From Rathayibacter oskolensis (GTDB lineage Bacteria > Actinomycetota > Actinomycetes > Actinomycetales > Microbacteriaceae): 64,000 nucleotides of DNA. The position numbers were made by a program, and so were the translations under genes. Positions 14,456 to 62,384 of this stretch are shown one piece after another. The notes below the pieces were generated by a model, which saw nothing but the letters and a program-made list of their open reading frames with translations, was not told the DNA's origin and did no database searches. Location of the stretch: NCBI RefSeq assembly GCF_900177245.1, contig NZ_FXBM01000002.1, positions 992,001 to 1,056,000 of the forward strand, in the 5' to 3' direction. Each line of letters opens with the position of its first letter. The first letter of the stretch is position 1.

Positions 14456-15928
14456 ATGGTCGACAGCACGCTCGCGGTCGTGATCCTGGCCGCAGGCCAG
14501 GGCACCCGGATGAAGTCCCGCACCCCGAAGGTCCTGCACCGGCTCGCGGGCCGGCCGCTGCTCGGCCACGTCCTCGACACCGCCGCCTCCCTCGACGCGG
14601 GCCACGTCGTGACCGTCGTGCGCCACGAGCGCGAGCGGGTCGCGGAGGCGGTCCTCGAGCACACCCCGGCCGCCCTCGTGGTCGATCAGGACGAGGTCCC
14701 GGGCACCGGCCGCGCCGTCGAGCTCGGTCTCGCCGCCCTGCCCGACGACTTCGACGGCACCGTCGTCGTGCTCAGCGCCGACGTCCCCCTCCTCGACGCG
14801 CCGACCCTCCGGCGCCTCGTCGACGAGCACCTCGCGGCCGCGAACGCGCTGACGATGCTCTCGTGCGTGCTCGAGGACCCGACCGGATTCGGCCGCATCG
14901 TGCGCGCGGACGACGGCGGATTCGCCTCCATCGTCGAGCAGAAGGACGCGAGCGACGCCGAGCTCGCGCTCACCGAGACGAACGCCGGCGTCTACGCCTT
15001 CGACGCCGTCGCCCTCCGCTCGGTGATCGGCGCGATCGGCACCGACAACGCCCAGCGCGAGAAGTACCTGACGGATGCGGCGGCCGCGCTCAAGGCCGCC
15101 GGCCGCGCCATCGAGGCGGTCCCCGTGCAGGACCGCTGGCTCGTCGCCGGCATCAACGACCGCGCCCAGCTCGCCGACGCGGCGCTCGAGCTCAACGCCC
15201 GCATCGTCCGGCGCTGGCAGCTCGCGGGCGTCACCGTCCAGGACCCGGCGACCACGTGGATCGACGTGGACGCGGTGCTCTCGCCCGACGTCGAGATCCT
15301 CCCCGGCACGCAGATCAAGGGACCGACCGTGATCGCCTCAGGTGCCGTGATCGGCCCCGACACCACCCTCGACTCCTGCGAGATCGGCGAGGACGCCGTC
15401 GTCAAGCGCTCGGACGCCACGCTCGCCGTCATCGGTGCTCGCGCGCAGGTCGGACCCTTCTCGTACCTCCGCCCCGGCACCGTCCTCGGAGAGCGCGGCA
15501 AGATCGGCACCTACGTCGAGACCAAGAACGCGACGATCGGAGCGGGCTCGAAGGTGCCGCACCTCTCCTACGTGGGCGACGCCACCATCGGCGAGGAGTC
15601 GAACATCGGCGCCGGCTCGATCTTCGCCAACTACGACGGAGTGAACAAGGCGGCCTCGGTCGTGGGATCGCACGTGCGAGCGGGGTCGCACAACGTCTTC
15701 GTCGCCCCCGTTAGAATCGGGGACGGAGCGTACACGGGCGCCGGCACGGTCATCCGCAAGGACATCCCCGCCGGAGCCCTCGGGATCACCGTCGCTCCGC
15801 AGCGCAACATGGCCGGGTGGGTGCAGACCCACCGCCAGGGAACCGCGTCGGCCACCGCCGCCGAGGCAGCCCTGACGTCGGATCCCTCGGGAGCCGACCA
15901 GGCGACCGGAGGAAGCGGAGCACAGTGA
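14456..15928 (+). CDS. glmU: Bifunctional UDP-GlcNAc pyrophosphorylase / glucosamine-1-phosphate acetyltransferase
   Basis: This 490-residue enzyme makes UDP-GlcNAc for peptidoglycan. The N-terminal nucleotidyltransferase carries LAAGQGTRMKS (about residues 11-21). The C-terminal half is a left-handed beta-helix with hexapeptide repeats and the acetyltransferase motif KVPHLSYVGDA and NYDG. The tail of about 25 residues is Ala/Thr-rich and poorly conserved. GGAGGAGAA precedes the ATG. The TGA overlaps the GTG start of prs, a conserved pair. Confidence 0.97.
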   Translation: MVDSTLAVVILAAGQGTRMKSRTPKVLHRLAGRPLLGHVLDTAASLDAGHVVTVVRHERERVAEAVLEHTPAALVVDQDEVPGTGRAVELGLAALPDDFDGTVVVLSADVPLLDAPTLRRLVDEHLAAANALTMLSCVLEDPTGFGRIVRADDGGFASIVEQKDASDAELALTETNAGVYAFDAVALRSVIGAIGTDNAQREKYLTDAAAALKAAGRAIEAVPVQDRWLVAGINDRAQLADAALELNARIVRRWQLAGVTVQDPATTWIDVDAVLSPDVEILPGTQIKGPTVIASGAVIGPDTTLDSCEIGEDAVVKRSDATLAVIGARAQVGPFSYLRPGTVLGERGKIGTYVETKNATIGAGSKVPHLSYVGDATIGEESNIGAGSIFANYDGVNKAASVVGSHVRAGSHNVFVAPVRIGDGAYTGAGTVIRKDIPAGALGITVAPQRNMAGWVQTHRQGTASATAAEAALTSDPSGADQATGGSGAQ

Positions 15929-16902
15929 CGGGCATCACCGCCAGCAACAAGAAGAGCCTGGTCCTCGTCTCGGGGAGGGCGCATCCGGCACTGGCGGAGG
16001 CGGTCGCCGCCGAACTCGGCACCGAGCTCGTCAACACCGAGGGGCGCACCTTCGCCAACGGCGAGCTGTACGTCCGCTACGGCGACAGCGTCCGCGGAGG
16101 CGACGTCTTCGTCATGCAGTCGCACACGTCGCCGATCAACGAGTGGCTCATGGAGCAGCTGATCATGGTCGACGCGCTCAAGCGCGCCTCGGCCAAGCGC
16201 ATCACCGTCGTCGCGCCGTTCTACCCCTACGCCCGCCAGGACAAGAAGGGCCGCGGACGCGAGCCGATCTCGGCCCGTCTCGTCGCCGACCTGTTCAAGG
16301 CGGCCGGAGCCGACCGCATCATGTCGGTCGACCTGCACGCCGCGCAGATCCAGGGCTTCTTCGACGGACCCGTCGACCACCTCTTCGCCATGCCGGTCCT
16401 CCTCGAGCACTTCCGCGAGAAGCTCGACCCCAAGACCCTCACCATCGTCTCGCCCGACATGGGCCGCGTCCGCGTCGCCGACATCTGGAGCGACAAGCTC
16501 GGCGTGCCGCTCGCGATCATCCACAAGCGCCGCGACCCCAAGGTCGCGAACCAGGTCTCGGTCCACGAGATCGTCGGAGAGGTCGCCGGCCGCGTCTGCC
16601 TCCTCGTCGACGACCTCATCGACACCGGCCGCACCATCGCCAAGGCCGCCGAAGCGCTCAAGAAGAACGGCGCGATCGGAGTCGTCGTCGCCGCCACGCA
16701 CGCGGTCTTCTCCGACCCCGCCTGCGAACTCCTCAGCTCCGAGTTCATCGACTCGGTCGTCGTCACCGACACCCTCCCCCTCCCCGAGGAGAAGCGCTGG
16801 GACCGCCTCACCATCCTCCCGATCGCACCGCTGCTCGCGCGGGCGATCCACGAGGTGTTCGATGACGGATCCGTCACCTCCATGTTCGACGGCGACGCCT
16901 GA
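15925..16902 (+). CDS. prs: Ribose-phosphate diphosphokinase
   Basis: This 325-residue PRPP synthetase supplies purine, pyrimidine, His and Trp synthesis. It shows FANGELYVRYGDSVRGGDVF, FYPYARQDKKGRGREP (ATP site), VDLHAAQIQGFF and the PRPP loop CLLVDDLIDTGRT near residue 232. The GTG at 15925 overlaps the glmU stop (GTGA). Its own TGA lies inside the left arm of the repeat element that follows, so mRNA structure begins right at the stop. Confidence 0.97.
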   Translation: MTGITASNKKSLVLVSGRAHPALAEAVAAELGTELVNTEGRTFANGELYVRYGDSVRGGDVFVMQSHTSPINEWLMEQLIMVDALKRASAKRITVVAPFYPYARQDKKGRGREPISARLVADLFKAAGADRIMSVDLHAAQIQGFFDGPVDHLFAMPVLLEHFREKLDPKTLTIVSPDMGRVRVADIWSDKLGVPLAIIHKRRDPKVANQVSVHEIVGEVAGRVCLLVDDLIDTGRTIAKAAEALKKNGAIGVVVAATHAVFSDPACELLSSEFIDSVVVTDTLPLPEEKRWDRLTILPIAPLLARAIHEVFDDGSVTSMFDGDA

Positions 16903-17004
16903 GCGCGCCTCGGCACGGCCATCCGCGGCGTTGTCGTCGGTCGCGATACCGCCGGTATCGCTCCCTCCTCCGCCTTGCGGCTGACGCCCCCGAGACGCGC
17001 TCAG
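16899..17004. repeat. Stop-codon-linked structured repeat, copy 1
   Basis: Left arm CTGAGCGCGCCTCGG (16899-16913, containing the prs stop) pairs with CCGAGACGCGCTCAG (16990-17004), one mismatch in 15. The core matches the copies at 22965 and 62113: CATC/ATCC-GCGGCGTTGTCGTCGG, then an inner hairpin GCGATACC-GCC-GGTATCGC, then CCCTCCTCCGCCTTGC. It may terminate or stabilise prs mRNA. Confidence 0.88.
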
Positions 17005-17335
17005 GAACTCGAGAAGCGCGCGGCTGACTTCCTCAGCGCGCTGAAGCGGTGCCTGCTGGTCGAGTAGCCGGCGGCGGCGAAGTGAGACCCGGCGTCGCTC
17101 GGAGGGTGGACCTCAATACACCCTCTGCGTGGGGCTGCTCGGTCACCCCGTAGTTGTGGCGGCGTGCGGTGGAGCCGTCACCTGCCGCGGCAACGAGTCG
17201 GTAGCGCGGCAGTCGTGCGCGTGCCTCCGCGTGCTGGGTCGAGGAGGCGCCGGAGGCGGCGTGAGGAGAACGCTCCAGCGGGAATCGCGCGCCGCGGCGG
17301 CGGCCGCGGGCGGCGGGCGGACCTAGGGTGGGCGA
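17005..17335. other. Intergenic stretch without a recognisable gene
   Basis: A degraded TCTCGATA-family palindrome (GGTCGAGTAGCC onward, near 17058-17088) is followed by about 230 nt where open frames are short, arginine-rich and without a family motif. A TAGGGT box at 17324-17329 precedes the next gene. Nothing else is supported. Confidence 0.55.
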
Positions 17336-21133: not shown

Positions 21134-22066
21134 ATGGCCCTCTCGACACCCACCCGAGCGGAGGAGCGCACCGTCGAGGCTCCCCGCCCCGTCGCCCCGC
21201 AACGACGCGGGCAGCGCACGGACAGGACCTTCCTCCTGTTCCTGCTCCCCGCCCTCGTGCTCTTCACGCTCGCGATCACCCTGCCCGCGATGATGGGCGT
21301 CTTCTTCAGCTTCACCGACTCCATCGGCTTCGGCGAGTGGAGCTTCATCGGGTTCACGAACTACGTGGCCCTGTTCTCCGATCCGGCGATCGCCGCCTCC
21401 TACGGCTTCACGGTCGGGCTGGCGCTGGTCACGGTGCTGCTGGTGAACGTGATCGCCTTCCTGCTCGCCATCGCGCTGACGACGCAGATCCGCGGCAAGG
21501 TCGCCCTGCGCGCGATCTTCGTGCTGCCGATGGTCGTCTCGGGCATCATCATCGCGTTCGTCTTCAACTTCCTCTTCTCGAACTCGCTGCCCGACTTCGC
21601 CGCCTCGGTCGGAGCCACTCCGCTGGCGACGAGCATGCTGGCCGACCCGAACCTGGCGTGGCTCGCGATCGTGATCGTGACCGCGTGGCAGTCGGTCCCC
21701 TCCGCGCTGCTCATCTACATCGCGGGAGTGCTCTCGATCCCCGGAGACGTCTACGAGGCCGCCTCGCTCGACGGGGCCTCCAGCTGGGGCCAGCTGCGGT
21801 CGATCACCCTCCCGCTCGTCGCGGGCTACGTCGTGATCAACCTGGTCATCGGGTTCAAGAACTTCCTCAACTCCTACGACATCATCGTCGGCCTCACCAA
21901 CGGAGGCCCCGGCACGTCGACCCGCAGCGTCGCGATGACGATCTTCTCGGGCTTCACCAGCGGCGACTACGCCTACCAGATGGCCAACGCCACGATCTTC
22001 TTCCTCATCGCGCTCGTGATCGCGCTCGTACAGCTGCGCATCTCGCGCGGAAAGGCGGCCTTCTGA
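21134..22066 (+). CDS. Sugar ABC transporter permease (MalF-like)
   Basis: This 310-residue inner-membrane permease has six predicted membrane segments after a basic 30-residue tail. The cytoplasmic EAA loop reads EAASLDGASSWGQLRSITLP (about residue 213), the contact with the ATPase. The segment NSYDIIVGLTNGGPG is typical of CUT1 systems. The stop and the next start overlap (TGATG), so it is translated together with its partner. Confidence 0.94.
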   Translation: MALSTPTRAEERTVEAPRPVAPQRRGQRTDRTFLLFLLPALVLFTLAITLPAMMGVFFSFTDSIGFGEWSFIGFTNYVALFSDPAIAASYGFTVGLALVTVLLVNVIAFLLAIALTTQIRGKVALRAIFVLPMVVSGIIIAFVFNFLFSNSLPDFAASVGATPLATSMLADPNLAWLAIVIVTAWQSVPSALLIYIAGVLSIPGDVYEAASLDGASSWGQLRSITLPLVAGYVVINLVIGFKNFLNSYDIIVGLTNGGPGTSTRSVAMTIFSGFTSGDYAYQMANATIFFLIALVIALVQLRISRGKAAF

Positions 22067-22965
22067 TGACCAGCCAGGTCCCCCTCTCGCCCGCCCTCCC
22101 GGGCAACCGCGCCGCCGCGAACGCGGACGCGTCCCGTGGCGCCCGCCGCCGCCGCTCCAACCTGATCCTCACGGTGATCCTCGCGGTCTGCGCGCTCTCG
22201 GTCATCGCCCCGCTCTGGGTCACCGTCACCATGGCGTTCAAGACCACGGCGCAGGCGGTCGACGGCAACGCCTTCTCGCTCCCGGCACCGTTCTCGGTCG
22301 ACGGGTTCGTGCAGGCGTGGAACCTCACCGACTTCCCCCGCGGGTTCGCGATCTCGATCTTCGTCACCGCGATCACCGTCGGCGGCACGATCGTCCTCAG
22401 CGCCCTCGCCGCCTTCGCGATCTCGCGCAACTGGGACCGCCGGTTCTACCGCTGGTCGTTCTTCTACCTGCTGGCGGCGATGTTCCTGCCGTTCCCGGTG
22501 CTCGCCCTCTCGCAGGTCTCGCTGACCGGACTGGTCGGGCTCGACAACCCGCTGGGCGTCGCGATCCTGCACGTGATGTTCCAGCTGTCCTTCAGCGTCA
22601 TGCTCTTCACGGCCTTCCTCCGCTCGCTGCCCGAGGAGCTCGAGGAGAGCGCTCGGCTCGACGGCGCGACGACCAACCAGGTCTTCTGGAGACTCGTCTT
22701 CCCGCTGCTCGCCCCGATGAGCGCAACGGTCGGCATCTTCGCCTTCCTCGCCTCCTGGAACGACTTCATGATGCCGTCGCTGATCACGTCCGACCCGTCG
22801 CTGCAGACGCTGCCGGTGCTGCAGAGCATCTTCCAGACGCAGTTCAGCAACAACTACAACGTGTCCTTCGCGTCCTACCTGATGGCGATGGCGCCGGCGA
22901 TCATCGTGTACCTCTTCACCCAGCGCTGGGTGATGTCCGGCGTCACGCAAGGCGCGATCAAGTAG
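22066..22965 (+). CDS. Sugar ABC transporter permease (MalG-like)
   Basis: This 299-residue partner permease has six membrane segments. The EAA loop is LEESARLDGATTNQVFWRLVFP (in parts) and the C-terminus is QRWVMSGVTQGAIK, a near-invariant CUT1 ending. It is coupled to the upstream permease by overlapping codons. The TAG stop is the first base of a structured repeat, which separates it from the GH13 gene 265 nt downstream. Confidence 0.94.
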   Translation: MTSQVPLSPALPGNRAAANADASRGARRRRSNLILTVILAVCALSVIAPLWVTVTMAFKTTAQAVDGNAFSLPAPFSVDGFVQAWNLTDFPRGFAISIFVTAITVGGTIVLSALAAFAISRNWDRRFYRWSFFYLLAAMFLPFPVLALSQVSLTGLVGLDNPLGVAILHVMFQLSFSVMLFTAFLRSLPEELEESARLDGATTNQVFWRLVFPLLAPMSATVGIFAFLASWNDFMMPSLITSDPSLQTLPVLQSIFQTQFSNNYNVSFASYLMAMAPAIIVYLFTQRWVMSGVTQGAIK

Positions 22966-23074
22966 GGCTCGCGGGCCTCGGGGCGGCCATCTGCGGCGTT
23001 GTCGTCGGTCGCCGTAGCTCCGCTACGACTCCCTCCTCCGCCTTGCAGCTGACCACCCCGAGGCCCGCGGGCTC
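22965..23074. repeat. Stop-codon-linked structured repeat, copy 2
   Basis: The left arm starts at the last base of the permease stop (22965-22986) and pairs with 23053-23074 over 22 positions with one mismatch and two G-U pairs. The core CATCTGCGGCGTTGTCGTCG and CCCTCCTCCGCCTTGCAGCT match copies 3 and 4. The inner hairpin differs in sequence (CGTAGC-TCC-GCTACG) yet is fully paired. Confidence 0.88.
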
Positions 23075-61166: not shown

Positions 61167-62111
61167 ATGCCTCCGATGACCGACGCCCCCGCCCGCCCGG
61201 CCTACCGGCCGTTCCTCGCGACCGTCGCCCGCGCGACCCGGATCGCCCCGCACTTCATCCGCGTGACCCTCACCGGCGACGACCTCGGTGCCGTCGGCTG
61301 CACAGGACCCGATCAGCGGATCAAGCTCGTGGTGCCCACTCCCACGTCCGACGCCGACGACTTCATGCTCTCGGTCGCCGACGAGGACGGCCCCGACGGC
61401 CTCGCACCCGACTGGTACACCCGATGGCGGGAGCTGCCCGACGCGCAGCGGAACCCGCTGCGCACCTACACGATCCGAGCGACCCGCCCCGAGCTCTCCG
61501 AGGTCGACGTGGACTTCGTCGCGCACGGCGACACCGGCCCGGCCTCGGCCTGGGTCGAATCGGCCTCGCCCGGTGACCGCGTCGTGATCGTCGCCCCCGA
61601 CTCGCGATCCGAGCTCCCCGGCGGAGGCGTCGAGTGGCACCCGGGCGCCGCCACCACGCTGCTCCTCGCCGGCGACGAGACCGCGGTGCCCGCGATCAGC
61701 GCCATCCTCGAGAGCCTGGGAGACGAGGCCACCGGAGCGGCGTTCCTCGAGGTGCCGACGGCGGAGGACCTGCTGCCGCTGCGCCACCCCGTCGGAGTGA
61801 GCGTCACCTGGCTCGTCCGCGACGGCGGTGCGGCACCCGGCGCCGCGCTGGGCACCTCCGTCCGCGCCTGGGCCACCCGATTCCTCACCGCCCACCACCG
61901 CGGCGTCGAGGTGTCCGACGTCGACGTCGACAGCGAGATCCTGTGGGAGGTGCCGGAGGAGAGGACCGACCCCGGCCTCTACGCCTGGATCGCCGGCGAA
62001 GCAGGGGCGATCAAGCTCATCCGCCGCTGCCTGGTCACCGAACTCGGCCTCGACCGCACTCGGGTCGCGTTCATGGGCTACTGGCGCACCGGCCGCTCCG
62101 AAGCCAACTAG
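61167..62111 (+). CDS. Siderophore-interacting protein (ferric-siderophore reductase, SIP/ViuB family)
   Basis: This 314-residue flavoprotein releases iron from imported ferric siderophores. N-terminal FAD domain with RTYTIRA (RxYT motif, about 111) and DVDFVAHGDTGPASAW; C-terminal NAD(P)-side domain with LLAGDETAVPAISAILESL and AWIAGEAGAIKLIRRCL. ATG is 6 nt after GATACT. Iron box 2 upstream. The stop is followed directly by a structured repeat pair. No siderophore transporter is in the window. Confidence 0.93.
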   Translation: MPPMTDAPARPAYRPFLATVARATRIAPHFIRVTLTGDDLGAVGCTGPDQRIKLVVPTPTSDADDFMLSVADEDGPDGLAPDWYTRWRELPDAQRNPLRTYTIRATRPELSEVDVDFVAHGDTGPASAWVESASPGDRVVIVAPDSRSELPGGGVEWHPGAATTLLLAGDETAVPAISAILESLGDEATGAAFLEVPTAEDLLPLRHPVGVSVTWLVRDGGAAPGAALGTSVRAWATRFLTAHHRGVEVSDVDVDSEILWEVPEERTDPGLYAWIAGEAGAIKLIRRCLVTELGLDRTRVAFMGYWRTGRSEAN

Positions 62112-62112
62112 T

Positions 62113-62304
62113 CTGCGAGCGCCGCGGTGCCGTCATCTGCGGCGTTGTCGTCGGTTGCGATACCTCCGGCATCGTGCCCTCCTCCGCCTTGCAGCTGGCT
62201 GCGAGCGCCGCGGTGCCGTCATCTGCGGCGTTGTCGTCGGTTGCGATACCTCCGGTATCGCGCCCTCCTCCGCCTTGCAGCTGACGGCACCGCGACGCTC
62301 GCAG
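62113..62304. repeat. Stop-codon-linked structured repeat, tandem copies 3 and 4
   Basis: A unit of 86 bp (arm plus core) is repeated at 62113-62198 and 62199-62284. The left arm (62113-62135, repeated at 62199-62221) is complementary to 62282-62304 over 23 nt with one mismatch. The inner hairpins are GCGATACC-TCC-GGTATCGC in copy 4 and a slightly broken version in copy 3. Begins 1 nt after the SIP stop. Confidence 0.9.
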
Positions 62305-62384
62305 AGGTTGGAGGGGGCGCGGCGCGCGGCGCGCGCGCGGCCGGGGTGCTGAGATGCGCGGGCGGTGGAGCGGACCGGAGAGGG

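Follow-up and report, generated by a model that had tools for sequence, protein, structure and literature searches.

Correia elements and RUP are short, gene-less repeats that occur in several identical copies, carry terminal inverted repeats with a short target at their ends and form long hairpins beside genes. The kink-turn has a three-base bulge located 5′ of tandem G·A on the bulged strand. REP elements, GTAG- or CGTC-tagged, are described as palindromes of 20–40 nt that mostly follow coding sequences, in gaps where the flanking genes converge or point the same way (PMC3733652). The literature cited in the analysis consists of PMC4681348, PMC3733652 and PMC10969869.

The window, i.e., the whole stretch of 64,000 nucleotides of Rathayibacter oskolensis DNA that was analysed, contains four copies of a hairpin element with a conserved core. 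The family to which they belong is large and spans two bacterial phyla, and no description of such a family was found in Rfam or in open-access text. Its folding is conserved more than most of its sequence. What is new, in our opinion, is a structured, strand-specific apex that recurs in two phyla on elements whose ends are unrelated.

Window copies and distribution of the family

Copy A (16898–17005, minus strand; 84.8 bits, z −4.57) is a hairpin behind a prsA-like gene for ribose-phosphate pyrophosphokinase (15925–16902, plus strand; PF13793, PF14572 and PF00156), whose TGA stop codon (16900–16902) lies within the base of the stem. The window PrsA is 98% identical to PrsA of Rathayibacter sp. 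VKM Ac-2754 (G001) and Leaf185 (G005). Copy B (22965–23074, minus strand; 95.8 bits, z −6.27) follows an ABC-transporter permease gene (22066–22965, plus strand; PF00528) with a TAG stop at 22963–22965. The core and inner hairpin occupy 16923–16978 in copy A and 22991–23046 in copy B, both on the minus strand and with matches to both core halves. The third locus, behind a siderophore-interacting protein gene (61176–62111, plus strand; PF04954 and PF08021; TAG stop at 62109–62111), holds a tandem. Copy C1 (62113–62198, minus strand; 62.4 bits) consists of a left arm and a core, followed by a right-arm remnant of about 6 nt; two non-Watson–Crick pairs lie in its inner hairpin (62157–62175). Copy C2 (62199–62304, minus strand; 98.5 bits, z −10.14), 86 nt after C1, is a complete hairpin whose right arm (about 62279–62304) is common to both left arms of the tandem. 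The z scores compare folding of the sense strand with that of shuffled sequence; C1 alone folds no better than the shuffles (z −0.61) because its right arm is truncated.

The earlier note on this DNA had reported four copies at three loci, each starting within about 3 nt of a stop codon, the last two forming a duplication of arm plus core with one shared right arm. The count stands: a covariance model of the family, the training set of which contains three of the four window copies, scores them at 62–99 bits and the next-best place at 22.6 bits, with no other strong match in the window. The tandem is indeed a doubled unit of left arm and core, 86 nt long, with a single right arm. The proximity to a stop codon holds for the hairpin bases of A, B and C1 and fails for C2, the second tandem copy.

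The first core half, CTGCGGCGTTGTCGTCGG, is exact at 22991, 62137 and 62223 and has one mismatch at 16923. With up to three mismatches it matches the window six times vs 0.48 expected, a number that none of 100 shuffles attained; two of the six matches lie elsewhere in the window, with three mismatches each. The second half, CCCTCCTCCGCCTTGC, is exact at 16963, 23031, 62177 and 62263 and is weak on its own, since at three mismatches it gives eight matches and one shuffle equals that number. A terminator had been among the roles suggested for the element; a scan of the three window loci for T-run terminators, limited to loops of 3–8 nt, returned no site and so lends this suggestion no support. 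Analogously, a scan of the same loci for the sigma-70 consensus, the only promoter type scanned, returned no promoter-like site.

The supposition that the element is undescribed agrees with Rfam, where at gathering score the window matched two tRNAs only and nothing at the hairpin copies; assignment to an Rfam family was thus rejected. Below threshold, the interval 62080–62330 matched microRNA hairpins only (best E 1e-5, 36.5 bits against a threshold of 79), which were taken as chance. In the text of 5.39 million open-access papers the 16-mer of the element was not found, and shorter pieces of the sequence occurred only in six papers, unrelated by title.

A pattern search of one genome per species, with both core halves exact, returned at least 119 stretches, mostly from Streptomyces among the matches listed. 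The other genera among the matches listed include Kitasatospora, Gordonia, Rhodococcus, Nocardioides, Pseudonocardia, Frankia, Rathayibacter and Leucobacter, and the clostridial records among them (Lachnospiraceae, Eubacterium and Family XIII) are mostly metagenome-assembled genomes (MAGs). The covariance model matched all 25 genomes of a set chosen for holding a copy. It further matched 5 of 150 Microbacteriaceae genomes, 21 of 396 genomes from the phylum of Rathayibacter (centred on G001) and 16 of 398 from the phylum of the Eubacterium MAG G012, each of these three samples including its known-positive centre genome. Copy numbers in all four samples are lower bounds, as part of the candidates was scored. 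Viral contigs gave no exact match. A viral carrier was rejected, given that a 221-base query against phages returned three matches in Pseudomonas phages, each of 29 bases, inside genes and taken as chance.

Conserved fold and strand polarity

On the purine-rich strand, the outer part of the element folds into a stem of 24–27 bp of fairly free sequence and a small asymmetric loop in which AAG faces a single base. Inward of this come a GCG/CGC helix of 3 bp, another asymmetric purine loop large enough to accommodate tandem G·A pairs, and an inner hairpin of free sequence. In Rathayibacter, pairing of the arms stops sharply about 27 nt from the core, and the Rathayibacter and window copies are bare hairpins of about 105 nt.

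The outer arms had been called unrelated between loci. This is overstated: the 71 distinct copies from Rathayibacter and the window reduce to 20 at 70% arm identity, and many arms are alike. The associated claims, that each arm is complementary to its own partner and that the inner hairpin varies and still pairs, are borne out. Watson–Crick pairing is 0.809 between own arms vs 0.527 when arms are dealt among loci, with a maximum of 0.567 in 300 deals. An alignment on the purine strand (A3) was made of 61 of the 219 distinct copies, chosen so that arm identity stays below 70%; the proposed structure pairs 81.9% of its cells, whereas dealing the 3′ letters anew gives 56.3%, and none of 500 deals reached the observed value. 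By part, the arms pair in 76.5% of cells, the inner hairpin in 91.2% and the 3-bp helix in 100%, the last partly through the selection filter. Cells changed on both sides number 612 vs 254 in shuffled data. The covariation score is 0.641 vs 0.206 shuffled, and it does not exceed 0.166 when the partner is slid by 1 to 3 columns with relatedness kept. Unguided, RNAalifold proposes 27 pairs, 22 of which show changes on both sides. One of these 22 lies in the core (columns 39/72: GC 50, AU 4, GU 3, CG 1). At the RNAalifold core pair 36/75, 240 of the 249 copies have G-C, four (all from Rathayibacter) have C-G, with both sides changed, and five are mismatched. Covariation, which the earlier note had taken from the window copies, holds well beyond these four.

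The core itself requires more caution. Copies were found via the core, so its conservation is partly ascertainment; the letters GCGTT and CGCCTTG were required by the search patterns and the copy filter, and for this reason their invariance in alignments A1 and A3 is partly by construction. Among 40 more distant copies found by the model, GCGTT is present in 36, GCCTTG in 33, both in 31 and the full 26 letters in seven.

Copies at orthologous sites show that pairing is maintained in place, either by selection or because one arm serves as template for its partner. For nine orthologous genes with 32 copies, 262 comparisons of differing pairs, with A·C counted as a pair (the wobble of the complement), gave 150 in which pairing was kept by a change on both sides, 63 in which it was kept by a change on one side, 45 in which it was broken and four unpaired in both copies. 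These counts come from overlapping comparisons and stand without a shuffle control, and one group, that of a 624-residue protein, may contain locally repeated arms. Changes on both sides of the arms can arise without selection, through arm-to-arm copying in repair or replication. The persistence of wobbles at fixed places is an argument for selection.

The mismatches within the arms point to the folded strand. Non-Watson–Crick arm pairs flanked by Watson–Crick pairs were counted on the strand used in the earlier note, in disjoint classes of copies. On this strand A·C or C·A outnumber G·T or T·G by 121:9 in the 71 Rathayibacter and window copies (48.5:18.1 with dealt arms), by 140:23 in 151 other high-GC copies (79.6:28.9) and by 20:5 in 27 low-GC copies (10.1:8.1). 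The dealt arms give ratios of 2.7, 2.8 and 1.2; thus, composition explains only part of the polarity. With one copy per arm family the counts are 30:4, 42:9 and 10:0, respectively, and the polarity is weaker outside Rathayibacter. On the complement, the A·C pairs are G·U or G·T wobbles, and the T·C frequent beside the core is A·G. The folded strand is therefore the purine-rich one, which in the window is antisense to the upstream gene, and the wobble evidence belongs to the complement of the strand first considered. The purine strand also folds better in 59 of 61 copies with RNA parameters and in 60 of 61 with DNA parameters; this follows from the same mismatch polarity. The folded form of the purine strand may be RNA or DNA. 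A C-to-T mutation rate that differs between the strands might account for some of this polarity.

The placement of the strands along chromosomes was recorded as a side observation. The pyrimidine strand is co-oriented with the replication fork in 14 of the 16 G459 copies, in 18 of the 21 on G025's main contig (this genome has 23 matches altogether) and in only 6 of 14 listed copies of Streptomyces G024. This bias is partly confounded by gene orientation, as about 60% of predicted coding sequence is fork-aligned in the sampled stretches of G459. Rathayibacter-type copies lie on one strand in 9 of 9 cases in G002, 7 of 7 in G140 and 9 of 9 on contig C2 of G005 (tandem members each counted), in part because the copies follow gene direction.

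Gene ends in Rathayibacter and mobile copies elsewhere

Five Rathayibacter genomes (G001–G005) contain at least 70 covariance-model matches. From 55 stretches around listed matches, together with the window, 76 pattern rows were obtained, eight of which, lying within a reading frame or lacking the core, were dropped. In all 68 remaining rows the upstream gene is on the same strand. Excluding second tandem copies leaves 58 rows, 57 of them with the stop codon at a distance of 15–40 nt and one at 944 nt, so that the link to stop codons extends well beyond the window. The rows are not independent, as 67 of them fall into 20 groups of upstream genes. The next gene is convergent for 33 of the 68 copies and on the same strand for 32, with no orientation assigned for the other three. 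The earlier note had suggested a covariance model and a search of Microbacteriaceae with it; both were carried out, and the copies proved to lie neither mostly within genes nor far from stops, and to covary.

The upstream genes encode, among others, an ABC permease, PrsA and, as judged by eye, TrmH-, response regulator-, CBS-domain-, GreA-, GuaA- and NrdH-like proteins. These are of unrelated kinds, and a regulon was rejected on that ground. The orthologue of the gene preceding copy B carries the element in all five genomes. Occupancy at prsA and nrdH differs between related species: prsA is occupied in three of six genomes (G001–G005 and G140) as well as in the window, and nrdH in five of six. 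The nrdH copies precede an apparent nrdI (by eye), which we take to lie, probably, within the same operon. A further G+C-rich palindrome, of the GGTCCGGGTGGGCAGGTTCTGCCCCGGGCC type, lies downstream of nrdH whether or not the stretch carries the element (L276–L281). In other Microbacteriaceae, 14 prsA and 11 nrdH stretches gave no intergenic match, and four loose matches (L262, L267, L288 and L290), inside genes and with six substitutions each, were taken as chance. No ready-made hairpin was seen by eye at empty prsA sites. Tandem units of 86 nt recur (L156, L160, L172, L175, L188, G140 and the window), and longer tandems occur at L150, L174, L191 and L193. Such recurrent duplications of arm plus core are likely to have arisen by slippage across the hairpin.

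By eye, the Rathayibacter and window copies have no common ends and no target duplication; their mobility is consequently presumed from kinship. In genomes of Kitasatospora, Streptomyces, Gordonia and clostridia, the hairpin is the apex of elements of 162–166 bp with terminal inverted repeats, longer palindromes that end in CTAG or TAG. Paired ends at this spacing were found in nine genomes (G023, G025, G174, G627, G755, G772, G821, G846 and G912). They include two of the three Streptomyces genomes (G023 and G025), the third, G024, giving 178 and 189 bp; the Gordonia copy measures 166 bp. The Kitasatospora genome G174 has eight 166-bp copies, each at a site of its own and bounded on either side by CTAG, seven of them identical over 166/166 positions in either orientation and the eighth differing at one base; a ninth copy has CTAA at one end. 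The suggestion that the element is a small mobile repeat is thereby supported, in that recent mobility is seen in a relative. A second small G+C-rich palindrome, of the CTCCCCCAG...GGGGG type, was noticed in or beside element copies, at most two per copy (L304, L305 and L306 of Kitasatospora G174), with similar left flanks in L024, L032, L036 and L086.

At 112 high-GC places, a distance of exactly 53 nt separates the core from the preceding stop codon in 21 of the 65 with a same-strand upstream gene, and for 9 of 59 a convergent stop is 55 nt away. These fixed distances arise because CTAG contains TAG, and an annotated plasmid gene terminates at the TAG of the element's CTAG. At 116 high-GC places, including the four of the window, orientation relative to genes is not fixed (+/+ 23, −/− 21, +/− 35, −/+ 14 and others 23).

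One Streptomyces genome has at least four families of ends with the same kind of apex. Shorter end pairs, of 57–134 bp, also occur, and those examined in Streptomyces are without the core. Insertion of the core into a ready hairpin was rejected: by eye, the core-less Streptomyces forms resemble products of internal deletion whose end points differ, and the empty prsA sites have no such hairpin. Searches of three Streptomyces genomes, one Kitasatospora genome, eight genomes of the clostridial sample and plasmids recovered neither a transposase nor an autonomous copy bearing these ends. Nor did the spacing of ends in the genomes searched point to an autonomous transposon: inward-facing end pairs within 5 kb all span 57–225 bp except two. 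One of these, of 1,366 bp in G627, carries two mismatches in one end, and inspection by eye recognised no transposase within it; the other, of 2.9 kb in G174, is formed by the outermost ends of a pair of distinct short elements. At L313 (G019:C23:29607-34912) an inverted pair with a spacing of 3.2 kb was also set aside, the contig being mirrored, most likely as an assembly artefact; each half of the mirror is about 2.6 kb long, and the genes of the two halves are identical.

Interpretation and comparison with known systems

In our opinion, the copies probably belong to a family of palindromes that are mobilised in trans and whose apex is structured and strand-specific, the Rathayibacter copies being an old, structurally maintained gene-end form. 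In being moved in this way and tolerated behind genes, the element would resemble MITEs and REP elements. The observations behind this reading are the repeated copies, the covariation, the mismatch polarity, the identical copies at CTAG sites, the fixed position in Rathayibacter and the changes on both sides in place. A putative enzyme supplied in trans would recognise the folded strand (the apex), the terminal repeats or both, and move the element. Copies would persist behind stop codons, where they presumably do least harm, and those of Rathayibacter, no longer visibly mobile, may have been kept as gene-end hairpins. Against this reading stand the failure to find a transposase or autonomous copy in the genomes and plasmids searched, and the conservation of the apex, for which a transposon mobilised through its ends would have no need. 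The invariable orientation in Rathayibacter is as compatible with a function at gene ends as with biased insertion.

The hairpin may have a gene-end role in Rathayibacter (termination, stability or an antisense shield), and two of the alternatives build on it. The element could be a domesticated 3′-end RNA element, whose hairpin in the Rathayibacter mRNA terminates transcription or shields the 3′ end from exonucleases. The invariant orientation (68 of 68), the stop distance of 57 of 58 first copies, the occurrence behind functionally unrelated genes of 20 groups, the folding of the sense strand of three window copies (z −4.6 to −10.1) and the changes on both sides at orthologous genes all speak for it. 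Yet the mismatch polarity favours the complement, no T-run was found at the window loci behind loops of 3–8 nt, the nrdH copies probably lie inside one operon, presence differs between close species, and high-GC copies elsewhere have no fixed orientation; we consider this explanation rather unlikely. The polarity would be accommodated by a structured antisense or read-through RNA, in which the purine strand, transcribed from the convergent gene or its own promoter, binds a protein and guards the gene end against antisense transcription. Runs of tandem U·G/G·U in Streptomycetaceae arms (by eye), the G·A-rich loops of the purine strand and the 33 of 68 Rathayibacter and window copies that face a convergent gene are in keeping with such an RNA. 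Nevertheless, it is improbable, given that 32 of 68 copies precede a same-strand gene, that no promoter-like site was found at the three window loci (sigma-70 consensus only) and that the polarity is unchanged where gene orientation is free.

An ordinary MITE, with the apex as a passive fossil of a common ancestor, would explain the terminal repeats, the CTAG flanks and the identical copies, and it can call on the existence of shortened core-less forms with the same ends and on the fact that the search itself selects conserved cores. A passive apex, however, would hardly have kept its unpaired letters constant across two phyla while the helices on either side changed with compensation, and this possibility is very improbable. 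We would advance, tentatively and with reserve, a further reading: the apex may be the recognition domain in a novel mode of mobilisation, a protein reading the folded purine strand, as RNA or single-stranded DNA, via its double purine loops, with stem and ends free to vary and the Rathayibacter form a gene-end module locked to the stop. If true, this would explain how one apex came to sit on unrelated ends across two phyla.

Several aspects of the family are instructive. As a group of structured repeats absent from Rfam it is fairly large, and it exemplifies a mobile element that inherits structure more than sequence. The shared apex offers a handle for finding the mobilising enzyme, and occupied vs empty orthologous sites in Rathayibacter would allow a direct test of the effect of a hairpin at the stop codon.

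Both intrinsic terminators and the Rathayibacter copies place a G+C-rich hairpin directly behind the stop; here, however, no T-run was found, the internal loops are conserved, and the wobbles belong to the opposite strand. With the kink-turn the element has in common an asymmetric loop able to place tandem G·A beside a three-base side, but the three bases are here located 3′ of GA, provided that pairs 33/81 and 36/75 of alignment A3 hold, a comparison of sequence order only. REP elements are likewise palindromes downstream of genes, with a length of 20–40 nt in contrast to about 105–166 nt here; a REP/RAYT system was rejected, the Y1 (HUH) transposase domain PF01797 being present in four of 25 element-bearing genomes and missing in 21, including all of G001–G005. 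The elements of Kitasatospora, Streptomyces and the clostridia are short and non-coding with terminal inverted repeats, and in Kitasatospora G174 near-identical copies occupy different sites with the target CTAG at both ends. Thus, in Streptomycetaceae the element is a MITE by its features, whereas the window form, in which, as in Rathayibacter, pairing stops about 27 nt from the core and common ends are lacking, is a relative only. What sets the present family apart from Correia elements and RUP is the window form devoid of terminal repeats and a strand-polar apex common to unrelated ends in two phyla.
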